Shown: one piece after another, positions 8,621 to 60,756 of the stretch | Layout: each line of letters opens with the position of its first letter | Numbering within the stretch: position 1 is the first letter of the stretch | Origin: Diadema setosum | Taxonomy: Eukaryota > Echinodermata > Echinoidea > Diadematoida > Diadematidae | Assembly (NCBI RefSeq): GCF_964275005.1 | Contig: NC_092701.1 | Span: 35,654,520-35,718,519, forward strand | Length of the DNA: 64,000 nt | Direction of reading: 5' to 3' | Translations under genes and position numbers: made by a program | Notes under the pieces: model-generated | Databases searched by the model: none | What the model saw: the letters and a program-made list of their open reading frames with translations, nothing else | What the model was told of the DNA's origin: nothing

Positions 8621-8850
8621 GCATTGGCGATCCCGCCGACCCCCTGGGACCTCACGGACACCACCCTGGTCTCGACGGCGACATGTACTCGCAGCAGGCG
8701 GCTCCGCCCCGCACCAAACGGATGCGGACGTCGTTCAAGCACCACCAGCTGAGGACGATGAAGTCGTACTTCGCCATGAACCATAACCCGGACGCCAAAG
8801 ACCTCAAACAGCTAGCACACAAGACGGGTCTCACCAAACGGGTGCTACAG
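8621..8850 (+). CDS. Lhx2/9: Lhx2/9 penultimate coding exon (homeodomain helices 1-2 and start of helix 3)
   Basis: The exon has 230 bases: two bases of a split codon, then 76 codons. The first 30 residues (rich in Gly, Pro and His) are a linker preceding the homeodomain; the last 46 are homeodomain positions 1-46. Relative to vertebrate LHX2 only a few positions differ (for example Met in FAMNHN, His in QLAHKTG). The reading frame stays open upstream of the acceptor to 8509, but that part is the pyrimidine-rich splice-acceptor region, so it is not counted as coding. Confidence 0.93.
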
Positions 8851-10638
8851 GTAATTCATGATATTAATAATGACAGTAATGATGATAGTGGTGATAACGA
8901 TTTAAAAGTTGACGCGGATGAATGATGATTAATAATTGTTACAATGATGTCGCCAATGATTGCTAAAGATATAACTTAAAATAACAGTCACATTCACATT
9001 GTGGAACGATCTACTTCGGTTCGTCCGCATTTCCCCATCCCTTGATGTCTTCAAGAAGAATCTTAAGACTTTCCTTTTTGATGCTAATCTGTGACTGAAT
9101 TTTGTTGTGAAGTGCTGTGAAACCAGTCATTTACTGTGTAAGGGCGCTACATGCTATATAAATGATTCGATTGTATCATTTATCATTCAAATTCAATGTC
9201 ATTTTTCACCTAATGCTCAAGTTAAAAGAACAAAACAGCGAGAAGCGTTCGCCAAAAAGAATGTCAGTTGAGTGTTGAGGTTAACAGGAAAAAAAAGAAT
9301 GCATGCTACTGATGGCTTATTTTAAACATATAAAAAGTAGACATTGCTTTATTTGATAATTCATAGGTATACAATAACAGTTGGCAAAACATAAAGAAAC
9401 AAATTTGGCATGTTAAAAGTCTGAGAGACCTACCAAACTTTGCACCTGCAAAAGGAGACAATCTACCTTATGCAAGTGTTATGGTTGATTATGCATTTCT
9501 CTGAGGGGTTTTTACTATGTTGTGACATTAACGATTTATGACTTTGTATTATTCAACAAGAAGTGATGTACATATATATTCTATTTTTGCGGAAATAAAA
9601 TCAATCAATCAATCAATCAATCCATCCATCCATCCATCCATCCATCAATCGATCAATCAATCAATCAATCAATCAACGATACTAAAAGCCAAACATAGTA
9701 TTAATCTGAGGGCAATGATGACAAGGAAAATTAAAAACAAATGATTACAATCAAGTCCAGTGATGGTGGAAAGTGTTACTGTGTATGTATAAAATAACGA
9801 CACTGAAAAGAACTTGTGACCACTGCAAATGGGATGCGTAACGTCTCCCAAGGAGCATCAAGGAAACTTGGATGAGATTGTGTCAGTTTGTCTTCCATGT
9901 TTAGTCAAACTAATTTACTCTAGTCTATTCTAACACCTAATAATTCATGATAAAAGTCGTACATCTAAACCATCTCATGACGCTAATACACGACATTCCA
10001 GTCCATTTTGCTTTGTTTTTTTAATGTACATAATTATCTCTACTATTTAAATGCCTCCGAGATCATCGTTAGTGTTTGCAACATCTGATTGTTATGTCGA
10101 CGGCTGCCTTTACCGTGTACAGGTGTGGTTTCAGAATGCTCGTGCGAAATACCGACGGACAGTGACGAAGAAAGATGACGACAAGTCGGACAAGAATGCC
10201 TCCAACGGCTCCGAGGATCAGTCGGCGTCATCCCCGCCGGCCGACGAGCACGACAACAGCAGCAACAGCAGCAGCGGAGGCGGCGCAGGTGGTGGTGGCG
10301 GCGGCGGAGGGCACGGTTGCCTCATCCAGCCCGACACGCCGTCCTCGCACGATCCGGCCGCCGACACCAGCTACGATGAGGAGCACATGCTCGTCGATGA
10401 CATGGCGACATACAGCGAGTTGAAGACGGCCTCCCCAGCGCTCGCCGACGAGGTATCAACGATTGCGTCAATGCCGATGTCGGCGCGGAGCGACCTGACC
10501 ACCGCCACTACTGTCCACGCGGCCAGCGACCTATTACGAGCCGGCCTCCAGTACCGCGGCGTTGGTGGAACCACATCGCATATGAGTAGTGGAGGGCTTA
10601 TCATGTCCAGCGGTTTTGTTGAAATCTTCAATAAATGA
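8621..10638 (+). CDS. Lhx2/9: LIM-homeobox transcription factor Lhx2/9 (apterous class), last two coding exons
   Basis: Two exons, 8621-8850 and 10123-10638, encode the C-terminal part of a nuclear homeodomain transcription factor. The first follows a strong pyrimidine tract ending in CTGCAG, enters with two bases completing a split codon, and ends in phase 0 at VLQ|gtaatt. The second follows GTGTACAG and opens with VWFQNARAKYRR. The homeodomain occupies 8713-8850 plus 10123-10164. TKRMRTSFKHHQLRTMKSYF and NPDAKDLKQLA are nearly identical to vertebrate LHX2/LHX9 as I recall them; recognition-helix W48, F49, Q50 and N51 are present. The intron between homeodomain residues 46 and 47 is typical of LIM-homeobox genes. 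The tail has 158 residues after the homeodomain: a charged KKDDDKSDK stretch, a Ser/Asn run, a poly-Gly run, then Ser/Thr-rich sequence ending EIFNK. No LIM zinc fingers are encoded in this window, so the 5' exons lie upstream. Family certain; LHX2 versus LHX9 cannot be separated, and invertebrates usually have one co-orthologue. Confidence 0.95.
9002..9180 (+). mobile_element. 3' end of a LINE (non-LTR retrotransposon) in the Lhx2/9 intron
   Basis: 9002-9094 translates without interruption as WNDLLRFVRIS...LDVFKKNLKTFLF...NL followed by TGA. WN-LP-x(2-3)-R-x-S-x(2)-FK-x(2)-LK-x(2)-LF is the classic C-terminus of LINE ORF2 proteins. It is followed by a short 3' UTR ending gctacatgctatataaatga and an AT-rich tail. 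The copy is severely 5'-truncated, the usual outcome of target-primed reverse transcription. The exact clade (CR1/L2-like or Rex-like) cannot be settled from this fragment. Confidence 0.75.
9599..9677. repeat. (CAAT)n/(CATC)n microsatellite
   Basis: CAAT units, a central block of CATC units, then CAAT again; inside the Lhx2/9 last intron. Confidence 0.9.
10123..10638 (+). CDS. Lhx2/9: Lhx2/9 terminal coding exon
   Basis: Starts in phase 0 with the end of homeodomain helix 3 (VWFQNARAKYRR) and runs 171 codons to TGA at 10636-10638. Coding GC content is much higher than in the flanks, as expected for a real exon. The tail is low-complexity (Ser/Asn and Gly runs, then acidic and Thr/Ser-rich), the usual style of a LIM-homeodomain activation region. 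A hexamer AATAAA at 10630-10635 lies inside the last codons and touches the stop codon. Confidence 0.93.
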   Translation: MWFQNARAKYRRTVTKKDDDKSDKNASNGSEDQSASSPPADEHDNSSNSSSGGGAGGGGGGGGHGCLIQPDTPSSHDPAADTSYDEEHMLVDDMATYSELKTASPALADEVSTIASMPMSARSDLTTATTVHAASDLLRAGLQYRGVGGTTSHMSSGGLIMSSGFVEIFNK

Positions 10639-40345: not shown

Positions 40346-40353
40346 TATATAAG
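40346..40353 (+). promoter_or_regulatory. candidate TATA box of the GBP-like gene
   Basis: TATATAAG lies 283 bp upstream of the ATG, preceded 40-60 bp by a cacgtgacgtgtacgtac stretch (E-box/CRE-like, 40293-40310). The position allows a transcription start near 40376 and a 5' UTR of about 260 bases. Sequence-based guess only. Confidence 0.35.
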
Positions 40354-40635: not shown

Positions 40636-40705
40636 ATGGCCGGCCGGTCAGCATCAATTTCTGTCTTCTCTTTCATCAGCTGTTTCAGTATTTTGCTGGA
40701 TATTG
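40636..40705 (+). CDS. GBP-like gene exon 1 (signal peptide)
   Basis: ATG at 40636 opens 23 codons ending in a split Ala codon at the donor G|gtaagac. The sequence is MAGRSAS then a hydrophobic core; exon 2 completes it with LVCAQD. A joint exon 1/2 signal peptide is supported by the exact phase match. Confidence 0.85.
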
Positions 40706-43700
40706 GTAAGACTTTTTTTTCTTTAGATAGAAAAGAGCTAATTAGCAATCATCAGTCATTTCTAGGTACGGTAGGCCTGCCATCAATAGTTGGTGGTGAT
40801 TGGTAAGGCAATATTTTTGTGAACAAAGTATGCATATTAATATTATTATTAATTTCCATTTATTATGAATATTTTACATTCATAAGAATAGAGAAATTAA
40901 CAGCCTGTTGCTTAATTGGCAAAATTGTGTTGTTAGCCCAAGATTCTCTCATGTTTGACATGTACACTATTTGGAGGAAAGGCCCCATGATAACAGCAGA
41001 TAAAGGAGTCCAAAAATTTTCCAGGTTTACTTTGTGCTACTGCATCATGTTTTAATCAGTTATAGGCCCTATTGTGTGTTAGTGTGTGTTTGCTTGCGTG
41101 TGCTTGTGTGTGCTCATCTCATTTCATGTGCAGGTTGCGGATTCCTATTCAAAAACACTCCTTACCATCTTTTATCCACAAATATTTGTATTGACAGCTT
41201 TAGTATGTGCCCAGGACAGCAAATCACAGGCAGTTCAGCCTGAAGTGGACCCCGACTTCCTTGGTCCAGGAAAGGATCCAAGATCAGGACCCACAGTAGC
41301 AACACAAGAACCTTCAGTGGGTCCTCCTGCAATCAATGGATCAAGGGAATTCTTCCATTTGCCTGAACAGCCACTGCAGCTAATAAGACCAGATGACTCA
41401 CATGAGAAACTTGTCCTGGTTAAAGAAAATGTCCAGGTGCGGTACTAGTAAAACTGTCCCATGTAAACTTGCTAATCTCTGACAAGGATTTCTCAACCTA
41501 CAATTTTGTACTAGCTCTGCATGTTTATTTCCCACTTTCCATTCATTAAGGTTTTCATCTCCTTTTGAGACATACAGTGGACTTTCATCACTGCTTTCCT
41601 TTAGAATTTAGACAAATATTTTGATGTCATTCAGCCTAATCAGTGGTTATATGTGGATGATTCTTTGGCTGTCTTGTGTGAGCTTGTGTGAAGTGGAGTG
41701 AACACCTGAACAACATGATCATGAATTGCATTTATGTAAAGGCCATCAGAGATTGATTGGTAAACATAAATTCAACTTTGCACTGGTGCCAGGGTCTTTC
41801 ATCTACATCTAGCTCTTTAATAAAGTGTATTTGTTGAATACAAAGTAAATTCTGCTTTCATCATTGCAGTTTTCAATTTTGACCATCATATATGATATAT
41901 TTATGGGTGTCTGTAGAATTGAAAATTACATTGCTTTTACTTCTAATGAAAAAGATCCATTCCTTCTTCTTTTTTTATTTTTTCCTTCATCTATTTATGC
42001 CCAAATCTGTTTTGTTTAGGACTTTGTGTTGTTCGTTTTCTTCAGTATTTGCTGAAGATGAACCAGTCTGTTGCAGTGGTTGCTGTTGTTGGCAAGTATC
42101 ACTCTGGCAAGTCCTTCTTGCTGAACCAGTTGATGGGCAAGAAGAGGAGTGTTGGGTTCAGGGTGGGCCCTTCCCTTAGACCTGAGACCATGGGTGTTTG
42201 GATGTGGGGAAAGGTATAGGAATACATCTCAAGTACATGATGACGTGTCTTGCTTCTCTTAATCAATGTACATCTCAATAGTTATACATTGTATTTTACC
42301 TTGTGGTCATTGTTATCCAGGTTTATGTATAAGCTTTTATCTTAGATCTTACATATGTTTGATATTTCATCTGATCTTTCAAATTTACTGTTTGCACTTT
42401 TATTTGAGAGAGCTAGAGCTTACAGAATGATAGCAGTTATGTTTGCCGACATTCTTTATGTACCTATTTTGGGGAAAAAACAAGCAAGCAAGAACATACT
42501 AGTGCGGACTTGGCAAGTAACTTAATGAAATTCAATACTGAATATTCATACTTAACCCTTTGTATGCTTTGAGTGTTGATTGGCACAGAAAACCCCATAG
42601 CATTGTACACACTGTCCAAAGTCCCTGGTCGAGAGAGTGTTAATGACAGCATTTGATCTACCCTACTAGCCTGCACAAATGACACTTGGCTCTGGGCAGG
42701 ATGTTGCCGTTATCTTCTTGGATACTGAAGGTAAGGAATTTGGATGATGCGCTGAGGGCATCATCTTGATAACATCACTAAGTTCATTCAGTCAGATTTA
42801 TAACCATTCAAAAGCAACTTTTTAATGTTCTAGATAAGAATGTTCCTTAAGGCAAGCATTGGGTTTTAATCCACCCAATAATGGCTGAGAAAAGTTGTGT
42901 ATTTTTTTTTCTCTTCATCAATATCAGCTCAAGATGTTTAAACGAAAAACTGCTAGAAGAAAAAGCATTATTAGTGGTAATACCCAAGTCTAACGCTGCT
43001 ATTGGTTGCATCAATCTTCTCCTTCCTCTTAGAAAAAAAAAAAGAGGAAAGAAAATGAATTGCTGGCATTGAAAAAAATGCTGAAAAACCTCTAAAATAC
43101 TTGCTTGTTTGCTTTATGACATGTTTAAATGGTTGGTATGCAGAGTGTTTGTTCCAGAAAACAGTTATTCTGTAAAACCCTTTTTTTCAGTCTCTTCCCT
43201 AAACAACACAAACAAGATCTATTTCTTTCATTGATTAAAGTCCAGTTGCTATTTCACATATGCTGTCTCCAGACCTCTTGTGCAATGTTTTCACCCATGT
43301 ATTGCTCACAGATTACCTGCTATCAAGCAAATCAATAAGAACCTGATATACTTGCAATTTTTGTTTCAGGATTTGCAGCCAATAATGTGTCCGAGACGTA
43401 CGACGCCAAGGTGTTTGCTGTCTCTGCCCTACTCAGTTCCTACCTGATCTACAACTCGGTCAAGATCATAGATCAAGCAGATTTGGACTACCTGGAGCTT
43501 CTGTCTCGCAGGACACAGGTAAGCAGGATTTGTCTGCCTGTCGGCCTGTAGTTTTGCTGAAGATGTAGAACATTAATGGAAGTACAGTCAAATCTGTCTA
43601 CAGCCGCCACCCAAGGGAGACAAAAAAGTGGCTGTTATAGACATGTGGTTCTTTAACATGCTGTTTCTCTCGGAAGTAATTGTTTTTAGTGGTTGTATAT

Positions 43701-46700
43701 GGCAGGTGATGGCTATAGACTATAGACTACAGATGGTGCTAATACATGATGTTTTAGCCAAATGAATAAAAGTATGGAGGCACATCTTATGATATTGATA
43801 GAAGTGGTAGTGGTAGTAGTAGTGGTTCCAGTAGTAGAAGGCAAAGCATATTGCTGATGTTTGTTATGGTAGTAATGTTAATGATTGTGATGACAATGAT
43901 AGTAATAGTAGTGATGATGATAATAATAAACAGAATGATTTTTTTTTAATGATACTTGTAGGACCTGCATTGATTCAGATTATCTCTTGTGTAAATAAAT
44001 TCTTCTCTGACAAGGCCTAGACTTCTTCTTTCATGTAGAAATTAAATGTCAAACATTTCTCTCCTCTACAGCTATTTGCCCTTAGATCTCAACTCTCTAG
44101 GGCCAAGTGGGCTCAAGACTTCAATCATGACCTCTTGACCTTTCCACCTCTACTATGGGTGAGTCCGATTGACCAGTATCTTTCATTGAACATTTTAATT
44201 TCCTTATCTTATTTTATTTTTTGGTTATTATGTTATCAATTTACTATGCTCAATGATCGAATTATATGATGCATCCAGAAGGCAATAAAGTTATCTGCCA
44301 ACCTGAAATTGAGCTAAATAGGTACAGAATGATTTCTTCACATTGAGTTACATGCTGATACTATGCAAGGTAGAGAATGGATAAATAAAGATTATGCCAT
44401 TTTGCACAATTCAAACTTTTGTGTAGCACTCTAGTGTAGAAGAGTCTGAAAACACTGAAGAAAACTGCTTGCAGGAATCTTAAATAAAAGATGCATCTAA
44501 ATGCAACATAAGCTTAATGGGAGCAGGTTTGCGAGTGAAACAAATATGATTATACTCATCGGAGACACAAATTTGAACAGTTGATGTGTTTCAATCATCT
44601 TTTGATTTTGGTATTTACGGTGACACTATTGTTGGTCATGTTGAAATTCTAGATTTTTTCATGGGTACTCATTCACTGTCAGGTAGTCCAAGATTTTGTC
44701 CAGTCCCTGGATGCTGACGATGCAGCGTCGCACCCGGCCCGCTGGCTGCGTCACATGATGCAGTCCATGGCCTGGGAGGGCGCCGATCATCGTATTAGCC
44801 TACTGGAAGTCTTCCAGCGTGTAGACTGTAAGACTCTCTTCTTCCCAGCCACGACAAAGGACTTGCTGCAAGATCTGTCGAAGGCAAGCACTGGATTAGA
44901 TCGATGTTAAACTCGGGGCTTGAACATGATTTCCATTGTGGTGTGATGAGGGATCAACAAACACAAACCTTGTGATTCATTCTCTTGGACGTATTTCACA
45001 TGCAACTCTTGTTAAGATTTCATTACATCACTTTGTCATCTACTGTCTGTTTATACACAGATTCCTCTCTAGGTATATTTCTACATTCTTCTGTTTAATG
45101 ATAATAAATGTAATTTTCTGGGAATGGTTGAAGAGAGCATTGAAAATCCCTCACTATGTCTTTTCTGCTGATATATTGTACGTACCCCGTGTGCCTACAC
45201 TGCTGTTCAGTTTAGTATCATATGTCGTACTGTATAAATCCCATGTTAGAAGAAAAGTGTTAAGCTGCAGTTTTGATGGCTCTCACAATCCAATATGATA
45301 CAGGCAATGAAAAAAAACAGATATTGATTCCTTGTGGCACATACATATTCTTCAAAAATCTTGTAGATTAATCATCATCAGTATCTGCTCAATTTCATTA
45401 CATGATTTCGATTGATATTCTCTCCACAAAAACTATCACTCAGAATCACACTGCCTTTATTATCTTGACATCCTGGGGCTATTTCTAAGAAAAATGATAC
45501 GTGATCTATTTCATAGGCAAAGGAAGAAGACTTGACTGAAGACTACAGACGAGAGAGGAATGAGCTGATAGAAGAGCTGAAATCTGGCCTGGTGCCAAAA
45601 GAGAAGAATGGTGAGAGTCATCCTTCAGTTCTTCATCTTCTCTTCAATGCTTTCCTTTATGATGTCACTAATCACCCAGTTTCCCCTTGTACCTACCTCC
45701 CAGTCTTATGCACCCATGTTTGAAAAACATACGTACCTAATTCATAGCTGGAAATTCAGTATTACACCAAAGAATAACATGCTGCCTGCACTCCCACCAG
45801 GTTAAAAAATTTATACCATAATCATCAACATCTTTAGACTGAAGGGTAGTGGAGTCGCCATGGTCATGTGGTGAAAACAAGGTTGACAGAAGAGAAACAT
45901 GCAGAAATGGGGGATGGAGGGGGGGGGGGGTGATTTTCTAACTTTATCCCTTCTGCTTGAATACTCATACTTGGCTAACATTTGTGGAGGATTTTCCTAT
46001 GATATCTCCATTTACTATGTTTCCATAGGGAAACCAATTCGAGGTCCAGAAATGGCATCCTTGCTGGACGTTCTTGTGACTGCCGCCAACGAGGGCTCCC
46101 TTTCACAGGTGACGTACCATTGCAGTAGACAGGATTACTACCAGCACCTGTAAACTTCATAAATCCTGTATAACAAAGGTTGTAGTCCTGACAACCAAAA
46201 GATATGCTACCAAGCAGGTCTATACTTGCTTACCATGTATTACTAAGGGATAAAGAGAATATAGTGGGGGGCCTTGCATGTGTTATTTTTGATTTTCAGT
46301 TCAAGTTGATGTAAAAGTTTAATTTTTGGTACCATTGTAAAGGTAATTGTCTATAGATCAATTTTGGTTCGAGTGTCAAGCACACAAGTAAGAAATACTC
46401 AAAATGGCAGCCAAAATCCAAGATGGCCGCCAACTTCTAGACTTTTGTCAAAAAATTGGATAAAACTCTCCATTTGAAGTGATTTAAGTGCTGAACCTGA
46501 TATTTTCAAGGGTAATGAGATTATTGGACACATTTATAAATAAAAACAATTAATGCCTTTTGCTTAATTTGTGAAAAATTTACATAAATTCAATTTTTTA
46601 AGCTTTTTTCCTTAAAAAAATACAATTATTTAGAGACAAAATGTATATGAAATATGAAATAATCACAAAGAAATGATAATGAGGAAAGAATTACAGCGAA

Positions 46701-49700
46701 ATCTTCCAGAAATGTCCTAAAATACATTTTCAGCACATCCGATGAATAGGGGGTCAATAGCTCCATGTTCTACAGAGGCATTATACCAAAAAGAAAGGTC
46801 TTGGAACTGCTAGCGCACCCATTTGAAGTGATTTAAGTGCTGAACCTGATATTTTCAAGGGTAATGAGATTATTGGACACAATTAGAAATAAAAACAATT
46901 AATGCCTTTTGCTTAATTTGCATAGATTTACATAAATTCCATTTTTTAAGCTTTCCTCCTTAAAAAATACAATTATTTAGAGACAAAATGTATATAAAAA
47001 ATGAAATAATCACTTTCAAAGCAATGTATCAATACATTGCTTTGAAAGTGATTGCTATACAGAATCAGAGCGTATGTGAGTTTTGTCCTGGCAGCTCATA
47101 TTACAGGATATAACGGTAGTTGTTGAATTCATGTTCATGGAATACAGCAGTGAACACAGAAATGTACACATGCACGTTACATGATCAGGAGTTGATATTT
47201 TCACATGTTGTTAGATTTGCGAATAGTACCCAGATCGCAGAATTCCTACAAATACTGTAGTAACCCCAGGAAAACAGGTACGGTATGAAGTCTCATTAAT
47301 AAAGATTGTCTTTGATGCGTTTGAGGTGACAAAAAATGATGTCAAGTATCAAAACTAAATGCAATTGTAGAATTTGCTTTGTGTTTGCTCTGTGTTGTGG
47401 GCTGCTCAGGTACAGCCCTGTCGCGATTTATACAGCGACTGGGCTGTGTATAGTTAGTGTACAGTGTATTTACATAATATGCACAGCCCTGTACAGTGTA
47501 TTTACATAATATGTGTATGCACAGGGCCTGTCACATCATTATCACAGCAAGTCATGACTGGTACTCTTAGTGGTCTCAGTCTGGTGGCCCCTGGCTGGGC
47601 CCCCTGCCTTGGGCCAGCACTTAGGCTCCTGGCCTCGGCCCGGTCATGGGCCCCATGAGCCCCTGGGCCCCCGGGCCCTGGGCCCCCGGGCCACCGGGCC
47701 CCCGGGCCTGGGCCCACTTGGGCTCTGGGCCCCTGGTTCTGGGCTAAGGCCCGTGGCCTTGGGTCCGGCCTTAGGCCCCGCCTTTGGCCCGGCTGTACTT
47801 TGTACATGGTCTATGTGAAATCAAGCTTGTCTGTAACTGTATAATTACAAATAATTACAAATAATCACAAATGATCAAGAGGTCCATACTATGAATATAT
47901 GAATATATAAATATATGAATATATGATTATATGAACATATGAATATATATGTGAATATATATATCATTATATATGATTATATAAATGTGATCAGGCATTC
48001 TGTTACGGTGTCAGATCTGCAGTCATTCATATATAGCAAATTTTATGCATGTATAAATGGCATACATTCATGTGTACAGTATGCTACACTACCGCTATGA
48101 AGTAACTTAATGCTCTACCGGGAAAACCGTTCCTTACTGGTAAAATATTGTCTTACCGATCTGCTTTCATTCAAGCATTACCGTTTGAAAACCGTTGCAA
48201 AGCTGACATGACTACCAGGAAAATACTCACGTAAAGAGAGGGCTTACCGTTGGCACAACTTTTACCATACCGTACCGTTGTTACCGTACCTTTACCGATA
48301 GCGCGCGAGTACTGCAGAGCGCGCGCTCGCGCGAGTACTGCAGAGCGCGCGCGCCCGCAAATCTGTACTTCTACCAAAGATAGTAGATAACAAGATACGA
48401 AGACGCGCGATAAAAATGGACACATTATGGCTACCCTACATGACGATACAAAAGAGAGCTAAGTACAAACTCAGTACACCTAGGAACATCATTCATTTCC
48501 AAAGGTAGTGGTATCTTTATTATCTTAAAAAGATTTAAAAATTAAAGTCGTAGCTTTTTTTCGATTAAGGGGATTATTTTGAAGAACGAGATTTTAGAGT
48601 AATAAGGATTATTTCGTGGAGGTAAAAATTTGATCAACATGATCTCACAATCAAAACGCTTGATAAACAACAACAACATCTTCAAAGACAGCGCGTCTCA
48701 GGCAAAAGACACACATCACCTGAGACGCGCTGTCCCTGAAGCCGCTGCTGCTGTTCATCAAGCGTCAAGGCAGCGCGTCTCAGGTGATGTGCGTAATAGT
48801 GATTTCTATAAGATTCCCAACATCGAACAGCAAAGGCATTGAGAGAGCAGAGGACTTGTCAAACAAACAGCCAGAATTTACACTCTGTGAATTTTTCATT
48901 GCTTGTAGGAAATGCTTTTAGAAAGGACATGCATCCTCTCATGGTATGACTTCATTTTTATAGAAAAGAAGAAAAAGAGTCAAAGGTATGGACACATATG
49001 TCAGACTCGTGCCATTTTAAAGGGACATTCCAGACGATTTTCATAATTTCACATCATGTAGTACATAAATCGACAACCCCACATACAGATTTGTGGAATT
49101 TATTGTGGTTCTTGAGCAGAGAAACAATACTTTGAAAAACCTTAAACAAATTAAAAACTGAACAAGGATGATGACATAGGAGGTTCACATATTTCAGAAA
49201 TGTAGCAGTGTAATTCCATTACAATACCGCTTGCTTGCGAGTTCACCTGTGTATAATCTATGCATGCCTTCTTCTTTTGTTCTGCTTCCTTGAGCCCCAA
49301 CTCATGCATTCTTATAGTGACTCTGCCATGTCATCATCCTTGTTCATTTCGATTTGTTATAAATTTTGAAAATATTCTTATTCTTCATCCCAATTATCAT
49401 AAATTCTGAAACTATGTTTTTTGTATCCGAGTATATCAGTAGTATGTGACATCACTGGCATTGCACTGTCACGTTTATGGACTATTAAAGATCTAGACAA
49501 TAAAAAAAAAATGGATTCCGTTTGATTAATTGCTGTAAAGAGATTAGGACAGTTGAAACTTTCAAATATTCAATTATGAATATAGTTAATAGGCCATGAA
49601 AATTCCAACATTTTCTATCAACTTCCTTTATGGTGCTTCAAGTTTACAGTGTGTTAATTTTCAGCCATGCTATTAAGGAAACCACTTTTAACTCCCATAT

Positions 49701-52700
49701 TTGCAGATTCCCAGTCGATGGTCATCTTTCATCCAGAATCTTGAGCAGTCATCGGTAGAGGACTGCTTGAAGTTCTATGATGCAGACATGAGTGTGTTGC
49801 ACGGTCTCCATGACAACGGCCCCATCAATGAAGCTGAACTTGAAGTAGGAATTGTCCTAGAGGGAATGTCCCTTATTTCCTTGTCAGGGGAGGTGGGTAC
49901 GTGGGCTGGGCTGGGAAGGGAGTGCGGACCTAAGAAAGGTGTCTTTTTTGTTGCCTTCATCAACTTGTACAGTAGACATTATTCTAGCTGAGCTTTGAGA
50001 GTAGTGGTCAAGTGTGCTAATATTAGTTCATATATTTCTGTCTCTTCTGATGCAAATTTCTAAAAGAAAAAGCAAGGTTTCTTTGAACAGAAACAGCAAT
50101 AAAAAGAGTATATGGTTTTTACTTGTAGAATATACTCTTCGTTAGCTATCGAGTAGATATGCCTAGTAAACCATATCTGAAATCTACTCCTGATGTGAAC
50201 GTATTGTAGGCCAGCTCAGACACGTTCACATTGAAAAGAAACAAAAGTCAGAATGGTCATCACTTCGCATGACACACAAGCAAGAATGTTTAATAAAAGA
50301 CACATTATGCAATTAGGGAGAAGCATTGTGTTTTGCAGCTTTGTGCTGTGTTTTGTGTTTGTGTATGTGTGTATGTGCATATGTGTACATGTTTTATTGA
50401 AGATGAAAATAGACTCTACAGTTCAGCCAGCGATCAAGTTCCCCCTAGATCGCGATCACGGGCGATCAGTGATCGCATACGCGATATGTCGCAATCAATT
50501 GATTGTATGCAATTCGGCATACAATCAATTGATCGCGTATGCGGTCACTGATCGCCCGTGATCGCAATCTAGGGGGAACTTGATCGCTGGCTGAACTGTA
50601 CTTCAATATCAGGAGCTGTGGTTTTGCTCTGTTCTTCTATGTCAAAGCAGCTGTTAACGGAACTGAATTTCCCTGCTTCACAGGCATGGCATGATCTTGC
50701 ATTTAACAAGACAACAAAACTCCTTCAACAAGTCTTGTTTGGGTAAGCTTGTCAAAATATTCTTTGAAGTGACTAATTAGGGAGTCCAGAGTCTTCTGAA
50801 GGTTAAACAATATTGTGGATGTGTTAGCAACCAATCGTTTTCATAGATTTTGAATTTAGAATGTTGCCAGACACTGTTGAGAGAGCTTAGAGTTCCAATG
50901 AACATCCCAATACTGGGTTTGAATTCCAGACCAATTTGATTTATTCATAAGGTGAACTTAACTGTCACCATATGTAAATATGTCCTAATTCCAATTTCAG
51001 TGAAACAACATGAATCTCAGAGGGGTAAATTGTATGCAGATTAACAGTTTTCATTTTCATGATTTCAATACTTGCACTAAAATATTCTATGTAATTGAGA
51101 CTGAAGATCTCCACCAACTTGTTTTTTTTTTTTTTATATTGTTGGCAAAGCATATCAAGTGTCAATTTCCTTTCATGGAATAAAACAAGGTGAAGTAAAG
51201 AAACTGTAATGATAGAATATCGTGCCATTGCTGTCTGGTAATGTATCGCTACTACATGTCCCCAGATTAAATGACATCTTGGATGGTGCATCCAGGTCAC
51301 TGACCCAGCAGCTGGTTGTGTCCTTTGAAAGAGCAAAGGACCTCAATGACAAGAAGGTCAGATTAGCCTGCAGCGAGGTACAACACAGGGTGGAGGTGAG
51401 GCCTTTTTCCACTCATTGGTATCTGAGTTCCAAAGCTGATGTTTGTTTGATTTTTTTAGTAAGCATTTTCATATACTTCACTTCTCTGTGCCCTGGAAGA
51501 TAGAATGAGAAAGATGGAAAATAAAAATGCTGGAGACTGCATGTATAGGTGCATTGTAAACAAAAATGGGATTTAATTGCGGTACACTGTCTTGCAAAAC
51601 TTTTGCAATGTAATGAGCACAGCTCCTTATCCAGCTCTGTTATTGAAAAGGAATGTAAGCATACCAGTAGTTGTGATGCATCTCCTTGCTTTGAAATGAT
51701 TGTGCATTTCCAATGGCTGCATACAAATTCTCTTGGTTTTACATTATTGAAAATTGACTTTTCTATCGTCTTCATAGATTTTTTTTTTTTTCAATACTGC
51801 CTACGGCTTTACAAGGCTCCGTAAAATCTGGTATCATTTGTCCATAATGCACACAGTTTGTGTAAGCCTCAAACTATCCCCACTTCTTTCTTTCTTCCCT
51901 GCTATAGTTGGAAGGTGAGGCACGTTTGTCGGGGCTTGACTTTCCCATGAGGAGCAAAGAGTTTGATCGTCTCTTTGTGTCTATCAGGAGTCAGTGTTCT
52001 TCTTCCTTTGAGGACCAGCTGAGAAAGTTCACCACAAGCCAGCACTTCAGGCAGCACCTTGGCAAACTCCAGGTAGGCCAGCTTGATCACTGCTAAAAAG
52101 TTGCTGAAAAGTTTTGGTTAAAAGTTTACATTGCATATACTCATAGCTCAGGTTACTTTGTGATCTTCCATGATGTTTATGAATTTTGATTGCCAGAACA
52201 ATCGATAGACTGTGTATCTGTCATGAAATTCTGCACCAGAGAGTTCCTAAATATGGAATAATTTTCTTGTAAAGGTGAATGATGCTGGTTGCCGAAAAAA
52301 AAAGGCAGAATGATTTCAAATTGAATTGCACCTTTAATGAACATGAGGTAGCTTGCATTCTTTACCACTACAGTACGTAATCTTCCAGCATGAAGCTGCA
52401 CTGAACGAAAGAAGAAGAGAAGAACATGTGTCCTGAATCTTACTGTCAGTAAATTATAATCCTCTTCATTCCTGTTGCCTCACAACCTTATTTGAGCCTC
52501 TCACATTCTTCTGTAATTTTTCCTTTCTCAATACCCAAACTGTTGGCAAAATTTGTTAGGTATTGTTCAAAGGATAAAAAAAATGCCTGGCAAGTTAGTG
52601 TGTTACAAGGCATTAGTATGCAGAGGGTCCAAATAGAGATATATTCTTCAGGGTAACATTGCTGTCGTAGCTAACAGATGATTTCAGGACGCAAGATAGT

Positions 52701-54270
52701 TTCCTGTACTATCAGTCATTTTCTTCATTACAAAAGAGTGCACCTTGTCTTATTTGTATTTTTGTCAACACTTCTTTTTATCAAAGGAGATTACTGTCAT
52801 GCCAGCACTGATTACATGTATTGTGTTATAGAAATGAATGTAGGCCAGCCCTGCAGTGAAACATCAATCTTTGTCTTGTGTAGAACAGTCTCCAGAAGCT
52901 TGGAGATTCCTTCACACTGAAGAATCAACGTGAGCTGGAAAACATTCTCTTGTCTGCAAGGCAAGAAGCGCTGGGTGAGACTGTGTTTGTTTGACTTTAA
53001 TCCTTTCTCTGTCAAGGGCTTCGTACAGTGTGTACAACACTTTGGGTATTTCTGAGCCAATCAGCACTCAGAACATACAAAGAGTTAAAGGTGCATAGTC
53101 CCAGTAGTGTAGAGGGCGCTGTTGATGATACTGCCGATCACTGTTAGCATTGATACAAAGAGTACCGAAGTTGAGCTGTCATCAAGAGTAAATACGTGCG
53201 TAGGTGTTGCTATTACGTAACGTTGCCTTCGTTGTCTTCTCTGCGCATCGCGCAGTCTGTAGTAATGCCAGGGTGCGTGCATATGTGCTTCTTATTATGA
53301 CATCACAAAAGAAGTTTGCTGAAGCTGTTATCCCCCTCAGCCGAATCATGAGCCGAACTGTGATTGGACCACTGACTACAGTGAATCGGACTTCTTCAGA
53401 CTCGGGGAAAGTGGGCCAAAGCGTAAGCGCCAAAGAGGAGTCAATAGCGTAGGTCTCTATAGGAAACTTGCGCCGTGCGCCCGCGTACGCATTTGACTAA
53501 AACACCGGGACCATGCACCTTTAAGGCTTCACTGCATCTGATATTATGGAATATGAAAATATAACATGTCTTAATGTAAGTATGTACTGCTAATAGGAAA
53601 TCTGTTCTTGAATTATATTATTTGCAGTCTGCCTGTACATGCTTGGCTCACTCTAATTAAGTTACTGGTAGCAGGTCCCCATAGTATTTCAGTAAACATC
53701 ACCCTAGGTGCTGTAGCATTGAAGTGGGCATTACATGGCTGAATTTATTGAAAATGGACAATAACCAAATAATTATTTTTTCTTAAATGTTTTATGTCTC
53801 ACAACTATTCCTCAATCTAACTGTAGAAGTTGTTATATTTTACAATGCACGTGCAATACAGAATTGTACCAAAAGATGACAGGTAACTCTGGTACGGAAC
53901 CAAGAACTGAGAAGGAGTTGAACAGGCAAAGCATGATGGGAAGGGAGAAATGTCATGAGCATTTCCTGCTGAAGGCAGCTCTAGCATCTGATGAACCCAG
54001 CCACAAGCTGCATACCAGTGCACTAGAGGTAGTACTACTGTATACTCTGTATATTTTGTGGTTTTTGTATTTCATGAGTCCATGTTTTTCTAGAATCTAA
54101 CAACACATGAAAGTCTCAGCTCTTATCCTGATCTGAATACAAACTAATGACCTCGTACATTCATCCATTCATTTACTGTGCTCTTGATATTGCAAATTTA
54201 AATGCTTGCGGAATTGTTTGGAAGTCCTGTTTCACAAAAAAAAAAAAAAAAAAAGATTTGCTAAATACAT

Positions 54271-54323
<53 letters not shown>

Positions 54324-57300
54324 ATACATGAGCATGAAGTGAAGTATGGCTCGCCTATTTTAATATGAAATTTAGAGAAAAAAAATCCACAAAGTAACAT
54401 TGTAAGGGCTGGGGATAATGATGTTTTGATATCGTTCACTATTGCTTTATTTTATTTTATTTTGTTTGTTTTGGTTTGGGGGATGGGCAGGGAGATACAT
54501 TTGCATGAATTATGGGTTCTCTTAAATGCTATACTTACAGGACACTGATCATGCACTTACACATATTTACTTTCTTTGACTTTGAAGCCAGAGTTGTGAC
54601 TCTTTTGCCCTTGACTTGGATGTACTCTTTGGACACTTTTTTATGTTCTGTGATCATAGGCAGAAATGAAGGAGGCAGATGAGAAAAATAAGATTGAGAA
54701 TGAAAATATCCTCAAGGCTACCTGTCAAAAAAAGGTAAGGACATTGATTGTCTACTCTTATCAGTGTGTTTGCAGGATATCCATTCGTATCTGGTTTGGC
54801 ATTAGGATAATCTAATTGTGGTCAGTAAATGGGATATTTTTATAACAATCCTAATCCATGAGTTGAAGTCAGGTAATTACTTCTAATACAGATTATGATA
54901 TCATTTAGTCACATGACGAAACAATGTTTGGTGTGGACCAACTAGAAATTAAACTTACTCACACATGAATAATCATTTAGTTCAAGTGCTGGTCAGTTAA
55001 GATCTCGTGCACATTGAAATCATTGCTATCATTTTATCATAATTGTTTTATAATCATTATTTGTATTAGCAATAGTTGCCAGTAGTGTTATACAACAGTC
55101 ATAATTACTACATGTGTATAACTGTTGTCGGTGTTCTCCATGTACCACCTTACTGAAAGCATTATGGTTCACATTCAGATCATTGTTTTCTTTTTTTAGT
55201 TAGTGTGATTGTACATACATCAGTGGAAATGATTTTCTGCTGTTCTATGAGAAGGAAATATTTACATCACTCTAATCAAACTTTTCTTTTAGTGTCAACA
55301 TTTGTCATTGTTTTACTTTTTTGCTGTAGATATTAGAAGTCATGACCACAGCAACAGAAAGAACCAGCAGTACTGTCATGAGCCTTCCTCTTAATGAAAC
55401 GGATTTAAATGAAAGGTAATTGACTTCTTCTTTGCCACTGCCATATTGAGACATCAATTTGAAGGATTCTAAAAGACAAATCTGCTCTAAGGATATATCA
55501 GGATTTGATAGAACCATAAAGGATTAAGACACAAAGACTGACAGTATCTGGAAACAAACATTATGGTGTTTGCAATCAGATGTAAGTAAACAAACACTAG
55601 ATGTGTATTTGCTGTGGTACTGAGAAATGAACGAAGCTTGTATTCCTGAGTCTTGTAAGACTCAATTACTATCACAGTCATATGCATTTTATTCATTCTT
55701 CAGTTATCTTTTACGTGCACATTTTGTTCTTTTACATGCCTGTTCATTTTCCCCATGAAGTGTTTCACAAAAAGATCATGAAAAACAAACAAGATGTTAT
55801 AAAGTAGAAAAAGAATGGAGTTAGTGATACAAGCTCTTATTTGATACCTCTACTTTTTATCATTAAAAATTCAAATGGCATAAGAGATTGATTTCTTATA
55901 TAGTGTTTATCAAGACCTTTGATTTCCATGATTATGAAATGCTGCTTTAAATTATTCACTTTCTGGTTCTTTTTCTTGCAGACTATTTAGAGAAGTAGAT
56001 CGTGCAAAGTCTTCATACAAGGAATATCTGGTAAGTTTAGAATTGAAAAGAGGGTGATGTGATATGGCGTACAGCCTGCTGGGTTTTTTTTTTTCCAAGT
56101 GTATACATGTTTGTAGAACCTTTTAAATAGGTGCTACTTCGTGAGGGATTTTCCAACCTTCATTTCCAATGATATGATGTGCCTTTACATACCAACGTAT
56201 CCTTCATAGTTGATATTTAGACAACTAAAAAGGATTTATCTGGACTTAATCACCAGACATCAAAATCATATTTTAGTCATCATAAAGTTTAATGAACATT
56301 GATTATTAGTTGAATGTTGAGGTCTTATTTTCATATAAAATTAGGACTTTGCCATGTGGTTTACATCTGGTTATACAAGTCGATGAAGCACTCTTGCCAA
56401 GACTGGATTCCATGTTTAGTGGTACTTTCTGATGATATTCAGTGCCTGCATTGTTTCAACCTTGTTTGAAGCTTGACTTCAGCAGTAGCCCAGCATTCCA
56501 CTCAGGTGTCATGGAGCTGGAACGGAGACTACAGGGTCTCTGTGCCCAGAGGAGGCAAGAGAACGTGGAGGCATACTCCAGAGAGGTGATGACTACATCC
56601 TATCAGTTGAATTCAAATTGTGACCCACTAAGATACACTCTCTATATCATATCTATTGATATGATTTGTGTATGACAGCATGTGTTTTACCTCACAACAA
56701 TGTTGTATGCAACTTTAAGAAGGGGAAAAAACACAAAAGAAAAGTGAATGTTTTTCAAGACCAGCTGAACAATTTTTACAATAGATCTTATCCAGCATAT
56801 GCTATCAGAAAGAGAGTGTACATTCCAAATTTTCTTACTGTTACTATTATTTCTTCTGGCAAAATCCTACATGAGTCATAACTCCTGAATCAAAACTTGA
56901 CATTTTGTAAGAGTTCACCTTGAGATACTTTACCATGAGAAGATTTTACTTGTGAATGGTTGACTTAACTTCAAACTGCCTATGCTCAACAACAATATAT
57001 TGAGTTCTTTATATGAACTATAGTCCATAATATTTAGGATGAAAATCAAACAAAGGAATTTTTAATGTAATATGGGAAGTGGTGTAAGCACTTTTAATCT
57101 TTAAGCTGGAATAAGAAATGACAGTGGATATGAATTCATCATTATAAGAGATTATATAAACATTTGATAATAAGTTCCATTAGACAAATGTCTGATTCTG
57201 TTAGGGTAGTAAACGTGACATACCTCTGAAAGAGTACGCTGATGTTGCCCTCTTACGATAGTGTCTACATTTATCTGAGTCTCCATTAAACACCAGTGAT

Positions 57301-58365
57301 TGTAATCCTACTTTAGCCCCAAAGTCTGCTTGGTCCCTGTCTGATTTTACATTCTCTTCATCTGCAGTATTTGCATCATTTCTCCTATTCTTATCACTGT
57401 CTATGACACGACAGGTTGAAGCTCCATTGCAGACAGCCAAGCGGGTTGCCCTCCTGTCGGTTGATAATTATGATACAGTCTTCAGTGTTACTAGATTTGT
57501 AAGTTGAATTTCTTGGTCATTGATCACTCATGTTTGAATCTAGAAATTAGACTGCTCTATAGTAGTGGCACACCATCTCAAAAATATACCTATCATGTCC
57601 ACAGAGACTCTTGAAAACGGATTACTGCTAGATTCTGGTGAAGTTTTCCTGCCCAATTTGTCATGAAAATTTGGATAGAAATTGAACTCCATCACTTTGT
57701 TCTGTGTAGTAAATACAGTTGAACCTCTCGTATCCGGACAAGTCGGGACCGGGGCTCATCCGGATAAGGGATTTGGCCGGATACGGGAGACTCAATGCTT
57801 TATACACGTACATATACATACACATGTACTGATGTAGCGAATTGTAGTACCACATGTAGTAATGTGTATACTGCAACCTTTCATTGTTACATTTGGGGAT
57901 GTTTGGGGATGTTAAAATGTCTGAAGGTAAGCAATTTGGAAGGAAATTTGATGTAATGTATCTTAATCATGTTCGAAGTAATATGTAATTCATGTGTGTT
58001 TGTGTAGGAGTTCTCAAGGAGTTAGGAATCCCCCTTTCCTCCCGTAATTATTAAATAAAAAATCACGGCGAGATTGCGTCCGTATAATAGAGAGATCCGG
58101 ATAAAGGAAGGCCGGATAAGAGAGGTTCAACTGTACAAAGGCACATATGCACAGGCAAATGCAGAAACCATCAGACAACGTAATCATTATATTGTTAGGT
58201 ACTATTAACAAGATTATCAGAGATTATGAATGATTTAAGCAATGCGTTTTCTTGTTTCTTAAATGCATTTTCTGCCCGTTTGTATGTCCAGTGGACTTTG
58301 TAGCCTTGAACAATCCTTTCCATACAAATAAAATGCCTTATACTAAGCGTTATCATATATTAAAT

Positions 58366-58400
<35 letters not shown>

Positions 58401-58923
58401 AACACAAGGATCAACTCTACAAACACTAGGTCATGTGCATACAGACATACAGACTCTAGAAAGACATTTATTTCATTTGTAAAATCTGAAGATTGAGAGA
58501 CTGTGACATCTCTCCCTAGATATCATACAGCGTATAAATCAATATCTAACATATTATACCCAAGACCTAGCATACAGAACAATAGTCTTTTTGACTATCA
58601 AAAGGATTGTAATGGTGTTATTTAAAGAAGAAAAAACAGTATCAGACAATAGGAAAGAAGAACAGAATGCACTTTTCAAAACTGATATATATTATATATA
58701 TATATATGTCTCTCTGTTCTTGCCCCTGCCCTAGATACGTCAGGTCTGCCTTTTGAACCTTAATGAGGGCAAGCCCAAGCATTGGTCCAGTGACCTCAAA
58801 GCCAGGATCATTGACCTCTTCATCCAGTCCGACACTGACCTCCAGAGGGTCATAAGGTCACGGGAGGGCCTCTGGTCCTCTCTTCGTGGTTTCTTCCAGT
58901 GGATTATGAGCCTCTTTGGATGA
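40636..58923 (+). CDS. GBP-like large GTPase with N-terminal signal peptide, 21 coding exons
   Basis: A GBP/atlastin (dynamin-superfamily) GTPase. Exons: 40636-40705, 41198-41436, 42046-42213, 42670-42730, 43370-43518, 44072-44158, 44683-44883, 45517-45610, 46029-46108, 49707-49844, 50684-50742, 51266-51395, 51908-52072, 52884-52974, 53862-54028, 54660-54734, 55330-55415, 55982-56030, 56472-56585, 57415-57498, 58735-58923. Phases all agree; about 831 residues plus TGA. Residues 1-28 form a signal peptide (hydrophobic ISVFSFISCFSILLDIALV, likely cut at VCA|QD). A Pro/Gly-rich linker follows, then the GBP G domain: P-loop GKYHSGKSF (119-127), switch region RPETMGVWMWG, DTEGF (177-181), SSYLIYNS, and VVQD (259-262) where GBPs have TLRD. 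About 430-830 is a mostly helical, charged C-terminal region like the GBP helical/effector domain, ending in an amphipathic WSSLRGFFQWIMSLFG. No CaaX box. Sequons: N70, N109, N185, N437, N680. The exon 7 donor is GC. The exon 19 start is uncertain (56472 or 56517). Family firm; function and location inferred. Confidence 0.93.
42552..42643 (+). mobile_element. 92-bp MITE, TTAACCCTTTGTATG family, copy 1
   Basis: ttaaccctttgtatgctttg...gattggcacagaaa...gtgttaa. The same sequence occurs inverted at 52997-53088, also in an intron of the GBP-like gene. Confidence 0.65.
43587..43735. mobile_element. fragment resembling a pogo/Tigger-type MITE
   Basis: Starts tacagtcaaatctgtctaca and contains gtggctgttatagacatgtg, phrases typical of Tigger-like ends (CAGTCAAACCTGTCTATA). 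The right end could not be found. Intron 5 of the GBP-like gene. Confidence 0.4.
46471..47012. repeat. two copies of a ~195-bp direct repeat, 349-bp offset
   Basis: 46471-46670 and 46820-47012 share catttgaagtgatttaagtg, gatattttcaagggtaatga and gacaaaatgtata blocks with few differences, so the duplication is recent or the family is young. In the 3.6-kb intron 9 of the GBP-like gene. Confidence 0.85.
47008..47053. repeat. perfect 22-bp palindrome with 2-base loop
   Basis: 47008-47029 (aatcactttcaaagcaatgt plus at) and 47032-47053 are exact inverse complements with only CA between them. Lies at the right edge of the second direct-repeat copy. Confidence 0.9.
47583..47797. repeat. GC-rich degenerate GGGCCC/CCTGGG repeat tract
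   Basis: About 215 bp of imperfect ggcccctggg and cccgggcc units in an otherwise AT-rich intron. Frames on both strands are Gly/Pro/Ala/Leu-only and not credible proteins. Confidence 0.85.
48303..48352. repeat. tandem duplicate of gcgcgagtactgcagagcgc
   Basis: Two 24-bp copies at 48303-48326 and 48329-48352 within a CG-alternating stretch; potential Z-DNA-like composition. Intron 9 of the GBP-like gene. Confidence 0.85.
48657..48764. repeat. hairpin with 46-bp arms and 16-base loop
   Basis: 48657-48702 and 48719-48764 are inverse complements at 38 of 46 positions; the stem nearest the loop (gacagcgcgtctcagg) is perfect. A third copy of cagcgcgtctcaggtgatgt lies at 48770-48789. In a GBP-like intron. 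Confidence 0.85.
49017..49500. mobile_element. probable worn TTAA-type MITE
   Basis: Starts TTAAAGGGACATTCC (49017), a common Kolobok-type end. It contains an inverted pair, aacaaggatgatgacat (about 49161-49177) and atgtcatcatccttgtt (49328-49344). The right terminus was not identified, so the end is approximate. Confidence 0.4.
50419..50598. mobile_element. 180-bp full-length hairpin MITE with TA target duplication
   Basis: Starts CAGTTCAGCCAGCGATCAAG and ends with the complement CTTGATCGCTGGCTGAACTG, flanked by TA on both sides. The arms pair over about 85 bp with only a few differences and one small unpaired insertion near the turn. Tc1/mariner-type target. Located 86 bp upstream of GBP-like exon 11. 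Confidence 0.9.
52997..53088 (-). mobile_element. 92-bp MITE, TTAACCCTTTGTATG family, copy 2 (inverted)
   Basis: Its complement reads tttaactctttgtatgttct...gctgattggctcagaaa...gtacacactgtac..., aligning along its whole length with 42552-42643. Confidence 0.65.
54272..54316. repeat. (TA)n microsatellite
   Basis: About 22 TA units; intron 15 of the GBP-like gene. Confidence 0.95.
57716..58133. mobile_element. 418-bp pogo/Tigger-like MITE
   Basis: Ends CAGTTGAACCTCTCGTATCC and GGATAAGAGAGGTTCAACTG, with TA at 57714-57715 and 58134-58135. TA duplication and CAGTTGAACCTCTC-type ends are characteristic of pogo/Tigger elements. Internal subterminal copies of tccggataa support this. No transposase frame. 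In the last intron of the GBP-like gene. Confidence 0.85.
58372..58399. repeat. (CA)n microsatellite
   Basis: About 13 CA units. Confidence 0.95.
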
Positions 58924-60020: not shown

Positions 60021-60250
60021 ATTTGTTTGCTTGTTTGTTTCAATCCATATTCATGTAAGTCATGTGTACCTGTTTATTAAGACATTTAAGTTTTGTTTGA
60101 TGTTACTTTTTTTTTTCTTTTTGCGTCAGTGAGAATTCAATTTGTTTTGTTTTCACATGCGATGGGTGATGACAGTAAAGTTTCAGCCTGTAGAGAATAA
60201 GTACAATTATTGACCTATCTGCATATTAAGAGTGAGAATTTATATCTATC

Positions 60251-60443
<193 letters not shown>

Positions 60444-60692: not shown

Positions 60693-60693
<1 letters not shown>

Positions 60694-60756
<63 letters not shown>

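Follow-up and report, generated by a model that had tools for sequence, protein, structure and literature searches.

A GBP-like gene of the sea urchin Diadema setosum, found in a 64,000-nt stretch of contig NC_092701.1 (hereafter the window), appears to begin with a leader that marks its product for the secretory pathway. With a little more than even confidence, and judging from the sequence, we propose that this GTPase is sent to the ER by its leader, is luminal or exported, and assembles with weak hydrolysis. In this proposal, a signal peptide of 28 residues would direct the 824-residue protein to the ER, and its cleavage would leave a chain of 796 residues in the lumen, to be retained there or exported. 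The GTPase-type domain would bind nucleotide and dimerise or assemble, probably without a fast cycle of GTP hydrolysis, because it lacks two residues of human GBP1, an arginine in the P-loop and a serine in switch I. The long C-terminal region, which closes with a short aromatic, hydrophobic tail, would probably serve self-assembly and contact with a membrane leaflet (luminal or outer) or with microbes. Human GBP-1 given an osteonectin leader is reported to reach the medium in high amounts (PMC5571548), so a GBP fold can evidently traverse the classical pathway.

Gene model and surrounding sequence

The gene was modelled from the sequence as 21 exons on the + strand (40636-58923), and all 21 join in a single open frame up to the terminal TGA, giving 824 amino acids. 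The original prediction spanned 40636..41436, which holds exons 1 and 2 only. The features to which we refer are as follows.

40346..40353, + strand: possible TATA box TATATAAG, 290 bases before the ATG
40636..40705, + strand: exon 1, with the start codon, encoding the n-region and hydrophobic core of the putative signal peptide; residues 1-24, phase 1 out
41198..41436, + strand: exon 2, remainder of the putative signal peptide (predicted cleavage after A28, codon 41209-41211), then a Pro/Gly-rich linker and the beginning of the GTPase-domain region
42046..42213, + strand: exon 3, P-loop GKYHSGKS at 42091-42114 and switch I P149-E150-T151 at 42181-42189
42670..42730, + strand: exon 4, G3 motif DTEG (D177-G180) from 42721, its last codon taking two bases from the start of exon 5
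43370..43518, + strand: exon 5, GTPase domain
44072..44158, + strand: exon 6, GTPase domain
44683..44883, + strand: exon 7 (GC donor), G4 reading VQDF, with Q261-D262 at 44689-44694
45517-45610 and 46029-46108, + strand: exons 8-9, passing from the last part of the GTPase domain into the C-terminal region
49707-49844, 50684-50742, 51266-51395, 51908-52072 and 52884-52974, + strand: exons 10-14, long C-terminal region
53883-54028, 54660-54734, 55330-55415, 55982-56030, 56472-56585 and 57415-57498, + strand: exons 15-20, long C-terminal region
58735..58923, + strand: exon 21, C-terminus with final residues LWSSLRGFFQWIMSLFG, TGA stop codon at 58921-58923

Splice sites were scored with matrices built from the other introns of the same gene. 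Nineteen of the 20 introns are GT-AG, and intron 7 is GC-AG, beginning with GC rather than GT at 44884. The lowest acceptor scores belong to exon 4 (-1.1) and exon 15 (-1.0). For exon 19, an acceptor at 56506 was rejected because it breaks the frame, and the site at 56472, chosen because it restores phase, scores low (2.1) and is among the least certain of the model. All three of these weak acceptors lie downstream of the leader and are thus not relevant to it. No paralogue of the protein was seen within the window; the 21 ORFs that match it, among 1712 of at least 25 amino acids, all fall on exons of this gene.

Several other features of the window may be recorded here. Intron 9 contains a direct repeat of 184 bases (46470-46653 and 46819-47002, 78% identical), and intron 20 an inverted repeat with 26-base arms (57719-57744 and 57770-57795, 81% complementary). 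By eye, a motif like the latter recurs near 58100-58130, which could make the repeat part of a mobile element. Two arrays of TA dinucleotides lie 3' of the gene, at 60241-60443 (about 103 copies) and 60693-60754 (about 31 copies). Far upstream, a homeodomain is encoded over two + strand exons, 8716-8853 and 10114-10158 (PF00046, E 4.6e-12 for the first part and 0.0013, short of the curated cut-off, for the second), and we take it to resemble the LIM-homeobox LHX2/9 type. This homeodomain gene and the structure of the GBP-like gene both point to an animal host.

The start codon and the first exon

The leader depends on exon 1 and on its junction with exon 2. The ATG at 40636 stands in a good Kozak context, CACGATGG, and the two splice sites are of ordinary strength: the donor at 40705 (TTG/GTAAGA) scores 8.0 against a gene mean of 7.2, and the acceptor at 41198 scores 6.0 against a mean of 5.2. 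The two exons join in phase (phase 1), as originally claimed, to give MAGRSASISVFSFISCFSILLDIALVCA followed by QDSK; by chance such agreement would arise one time in three. Stronger sites exist nearby: two donors (40765, score 8.7, and 40802, score 9.3) and one acceptor (41134, score 7.1). The hydrophobic core is kept in the model as well as in four further splice variants that were examined with the ATG at 40636.

As alternative first exons we collected every ATG-donor pair within about 5 kb upstream able to join exon 2 in phase (n=68). A GTRAG donor is present in five of them, and exon 1 is the sole one of these to score above 3.5 as a leader (the others reach 2.85, 0.26, 0.26 and -0.58). 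Ten of the 68 pairs outscore exon 1 as a leader, all with other GT donors; six of the ten rely on the LVCA/Q supplied by exon 2 itself, and two are earlier donors within exon 1. After M1 the next methionine is M108, with none between. The best GBP alignments already begin at residue 82, so a start at M108 would cut the front off the GTPase domain. From 40370 onward the ATG is preceded by two short reading frames, of 10 and 3 aa, which count against a simple start. The TATA box was set aside as promoter evidence, since TATAWAAG occurs three times in the window against 6.9 expected, which is chance level.

The predicted leader

Residues 1-28 run from a brief basic stretch through a hydrophobic core to a VCA/Q end. 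The original prediction of a signal peptide cut after VCA is borne out as a sequence prediction, and with it entry into the secretory pathway is likewise supported as one. The best cleavage site falls after A28, with a score of 5.44 on a von Heijne-type matrix, for which the usual threshold is 3.5; 173 of 5000 whole-protein shuffles (3.5%) reach this value. On the same matrix, three control signal peptides score 6.85, 9.99 and 7.06, and three non-secreted proteins 2.09 (human GBP1), -2.25 and -6.22. Hydropathy over 19 residues (KD19) peaks at 2.34, a value that 12 of 20000 shuffled sequences attain somewhere in their first 45 residues. Mitochondrial targeting seems unlikely, because the leader carries one arginine and is very hydrophobic.

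Beyond the cut, the Pro/Gly-rich linker of the original prediction is present: residues 29-80 hold 14 prolines and glycines among 52, compared with a later 52-residue maximum of 12 and a mean of 3.6. The five N-x-S/T sequons are also there. As evidence of secretion they carry no weight, however, with 4.1 expected and at least five in 38% of 2000 shuffles, and we accordingly discount them, at chance level, as a sign of glycosylation. Overall, a leader at the head of an open GBP-like gene makes a credible prediction.

The GTPase domain and its GTP site

Assignment to the GBP family rests on a GTPase domain that Pfam recognises at residues 93-346 (PF02263, E 1.3e-42, 146.2 bits where the cut-off is 21.1), in agreement with the original prediction. 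The best PDB sequences are GBP2, GBP5 and GBP1 (E 2.7e-32 to 1.8e-28, GBP2 at 2.7e-32), which align with the GTPase domain at 28-31% identity along some 330 residues; the next are the LOC432253 protein (7.5e-12) and then the atlastins (best 3.5e-8). By these matches the predicted protein is closer to GBPs than to atlastins. NCBIfam gave 12 weak matches on the GTPase domain, all far under their cut-offs.

The C-terminal region is less easily placed. Alignments to the PDB sequences for GBP1 and GBP5 extend to residue 412, and residues 356-824 have no convincing match in Pfam or PDB. The one Pfam match there up to E 10 is RPN13_C (0.19, below cut-off), which we take as chance together with a polyketone reductase in PDB (0.0084). 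The C-terminal helical domain of GBPs is the family PF02841 (GBP_C). Two scans of viral contigs for relatives gave 13 and 50 candidate stretches, none of which was confirmed. One of 48 candidate stretches from prokaryote genomes was confirmed (L001), over 41 residues around the P-loop, and by reading of its ORF it seems to be an Era-like GTPase.

Aligned with GBP1, GBP2 and GBP5, the GTP site is partly kept and partly altered. The kept residues are the P-loop lysine and serine, the switch I threonine (T151), DTEG and the G4 aspartate, so that the P-loop pattern GxxxxGKS reads GKYHSGKS and DxEG reads DTEG. Six residues are named for the GTP site of human GBP1, and two of them are replaced in this one genome, H122 standing at the position of R48 and P149 at that of S73, with T75 kept as T151. 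In addition, Q261 takes the position of R183, so that G4 reads Q-D rather than the R-D of human GBPs. Because it is without the RD motif of G4 and the catalytic arginine of the P-loop (Q261-D262 and H122), we call the protein GBP-like and not a canonical GBP.

Read by reference to human GBP1, these replacements make it likely that nucleotide binding is retained and that GTP hydrolysis is weak. Since the residues replaced are those of hydrolysis, the supply of GTP outside the cytosol becomes less of a worry, and the replacements suggest a way round it.

Topology and alternative explanations

The charge is +2 before the hydrophobic core and -3 over the 15 residues after it. Under the positive-inside rule such flanks give an N-in, C-out orientation, and the GTPase domain is therefore predicted to be luminal whether the leader is cut or uncut. 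By hydropathy there is no C-terminal transmembrane segment, all 19-residue windows clear of the leader being at or below 1.39, and the C-terminus (LWSSLRGFFQWIMSLFG) has neither a CaaX nor a KDEL-type end. The open gene structure, the putative leader, the GTPase domain, its replacements and this anchorless C-terminus can be read in the sequence itself; from them we infer that the leader is cleaved, that the topology is luminal, that hydrolysis is weak and that the protein assembles, as well as any part it may have in defence or in shaping the ER.

Three other explanations were weighed. The leader might only target the ER, leaving the GTPase domain in the cytosol behind an N-terminal anchor or hairpin, as in an ER-bound GBP or an atlastin. 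We consider this unlikely, although GTP is plentiful in the cytosol and published work on leader-bearing relatives leans the same way. AtGBPL2 of plants is placed at the ER and called an atlastin counterpart (PMC12034427), a review calls proteins of its clade cytosolic (PMC12489281), and the authors of a proteinase K assay on DdGBP of Dictyostelium conclude that its GTPase domain is cytosolic (PMC12040241). In that assay GFP was reportedly placed before the leader or after the predicted transmembrane segment (PMC12040241). In our view the assay does not exclude a luminal domain for DdGBP. If DdGBP were a type I protein, its C-terminal tag would face the cytosol, and both tags would be open to digestion even with the natural GTPase domain in the lumen. 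For the Diadema setosum protein the charges of +2 and -3 predict the opposite arrangement, and since it has no C-terminal transmembrane segment, unlike DdGBP and AtGBPL2, placing the domain in the cytosol would take an N-out anchor.

It is less probable again that exon 1 is wrong, or is one of several first exons, and that another first exon gives rise mainly to a GBP-like protein of the ordinary cytosolic sort. Exon 1 is predicted from one genome, and the ten higher-scoring pairs, the one-in-three phase agreement and the chance-level TATA match all leave room for this. Against it, exon 2 itself supplies LVCA/QDSK, a typical signal-peptide end, beside an ordinary acceptor, and exon 1 alone passes 3.5 among the candidates with a GTRAG donor. 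Least probable of the three, and improbable in our estimate, is a fully secreted defence factor of the body fluid that would coat microbes as soluble human GBP1 coats bacteria. The signal peptide, the lack of a later transmembrane segment and the lack of a KDEL-type end would all suit it, yet extracellular GTP is scarce. Secreted human GBP-1 is reported in cerebrospinal fluid (PMC5571548), and human GBP1 is described as polymerising on bacteria (PMC12091997), both of which favour such a factor. A luminal or exported GBP-like protein with weak hydrolysis thus remains the explanation that we prefer.

Beyond this single gene, it is conceivable, if doubtful, that animals, like plants and amoebae, retain an old lineage of GBP-like proteins that are luminal or secreted. 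In it the GTPase domain would act on the luminal or outer face of membranes, and nucleotide-bound assembly would have replaced fast hydrolysis. If so, GBPs of the lumen or the secretory pathway may have come first, and the leader would have been lost from the cytosolic GBPs that interferon induces in vertebrates.

Comparison with known GBPs

The suggestion that the protein represents an undescribed topological class does not hold, as signal peptides have already been predicted for DdGBP (PMC8565484, PMC12040241) and for the AtGBPL2 clade (PMC12489281). In addition, human GBP-1 has been reported as a secreted GTPase without a leader (PMC5571548). According to a 2022 review, the presence and function of GBPs in invertebrates are unclear (PMC9005921). 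Among the papers listed by our literature searches we noticed none on an animal GBP with a signal peptide, which is weak evidence of absence; one of those listed, a cnidarian antiviral study (PMC8476169), contains both terms. GBPs are studied as cytosolic defence proteins, and an animal case beside those of plants and Dictyostelium weakens the dismissal of such leaders as prediction errors. The side of the membrane on which leader-bearing GBPs act thereby becomes a testable question.

DdGBP (gnbp, Q54TN9, DDB_G0281639) is by description similar, with a predicted signal peptide, a GBP GTPase domain, no CaaX and a total length of 796 aa, compared with 824 aa here (PMC12040241). Its human-type helical part is described as replaced by a long sequence without predicted motif (PMC8565484), as in Diadema setosum, and a later paper reports an extended helical portion in the AlphaFold model (PMC12040241). 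Unlike the sea urchin protein, in which hydropathy finds none, it has a predicted C-terminal transmembrane segment (PMC12040241). Similarly, the AtGBPL2 clade (AT2G38840, tomato SlGBP3/4) shares the predicted signal peptide (PMC12489281), but AtGBPL2 is reported to have about 600 aa and three C-terminal transmembrane helices (PMC12034427, PMC12489281), whereas the Diadema setosum protein is longer and has none. The GTPase of AtGBPL2 is described as required for its gain-of-function phenotype (PMC12034427); the sea urchin protein is without two of the hydrolysis residues. AtGBPL1 also has altered G motifs and is called a pseudo-GTPase, but it is described as nuclear and without the G2 threonine (PMC12489281), which the Diadema setosum protein keeps.

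The atlastins are detectable relatives in the GTPase domain and are linked to the ER, but their match is far weaker (3.5e-8 against 2.7e-32). They have a transmembrane hairpin, which is absent from the Diadema setosum protein. The closest solved relatives of the GTPase domain remain GBP1, GBP2 and GBP5, which we take to be the human entries in PDB; they carry R48, S73 and R-D where this protein has H, P and Q-D, and to our knowledge they are cytosolic and without a leader. Secreted human GBP-1 is also extracellular, but it is described as leaderless and as taking a non-classical, caspase-1-dependent route (PMC5571548).

Compared with the leader-bearing GBPs already described, what would be new here is the animal host, the absence of a C-terminal transmembrane segment and the replaced GTP-site residues, including the change from Arg to Gln in G4. 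The protein is probably best regarded as a variant of a little-studied kind, with a leader, without a C-terminal anchor and with a probably weakened GTPase site.
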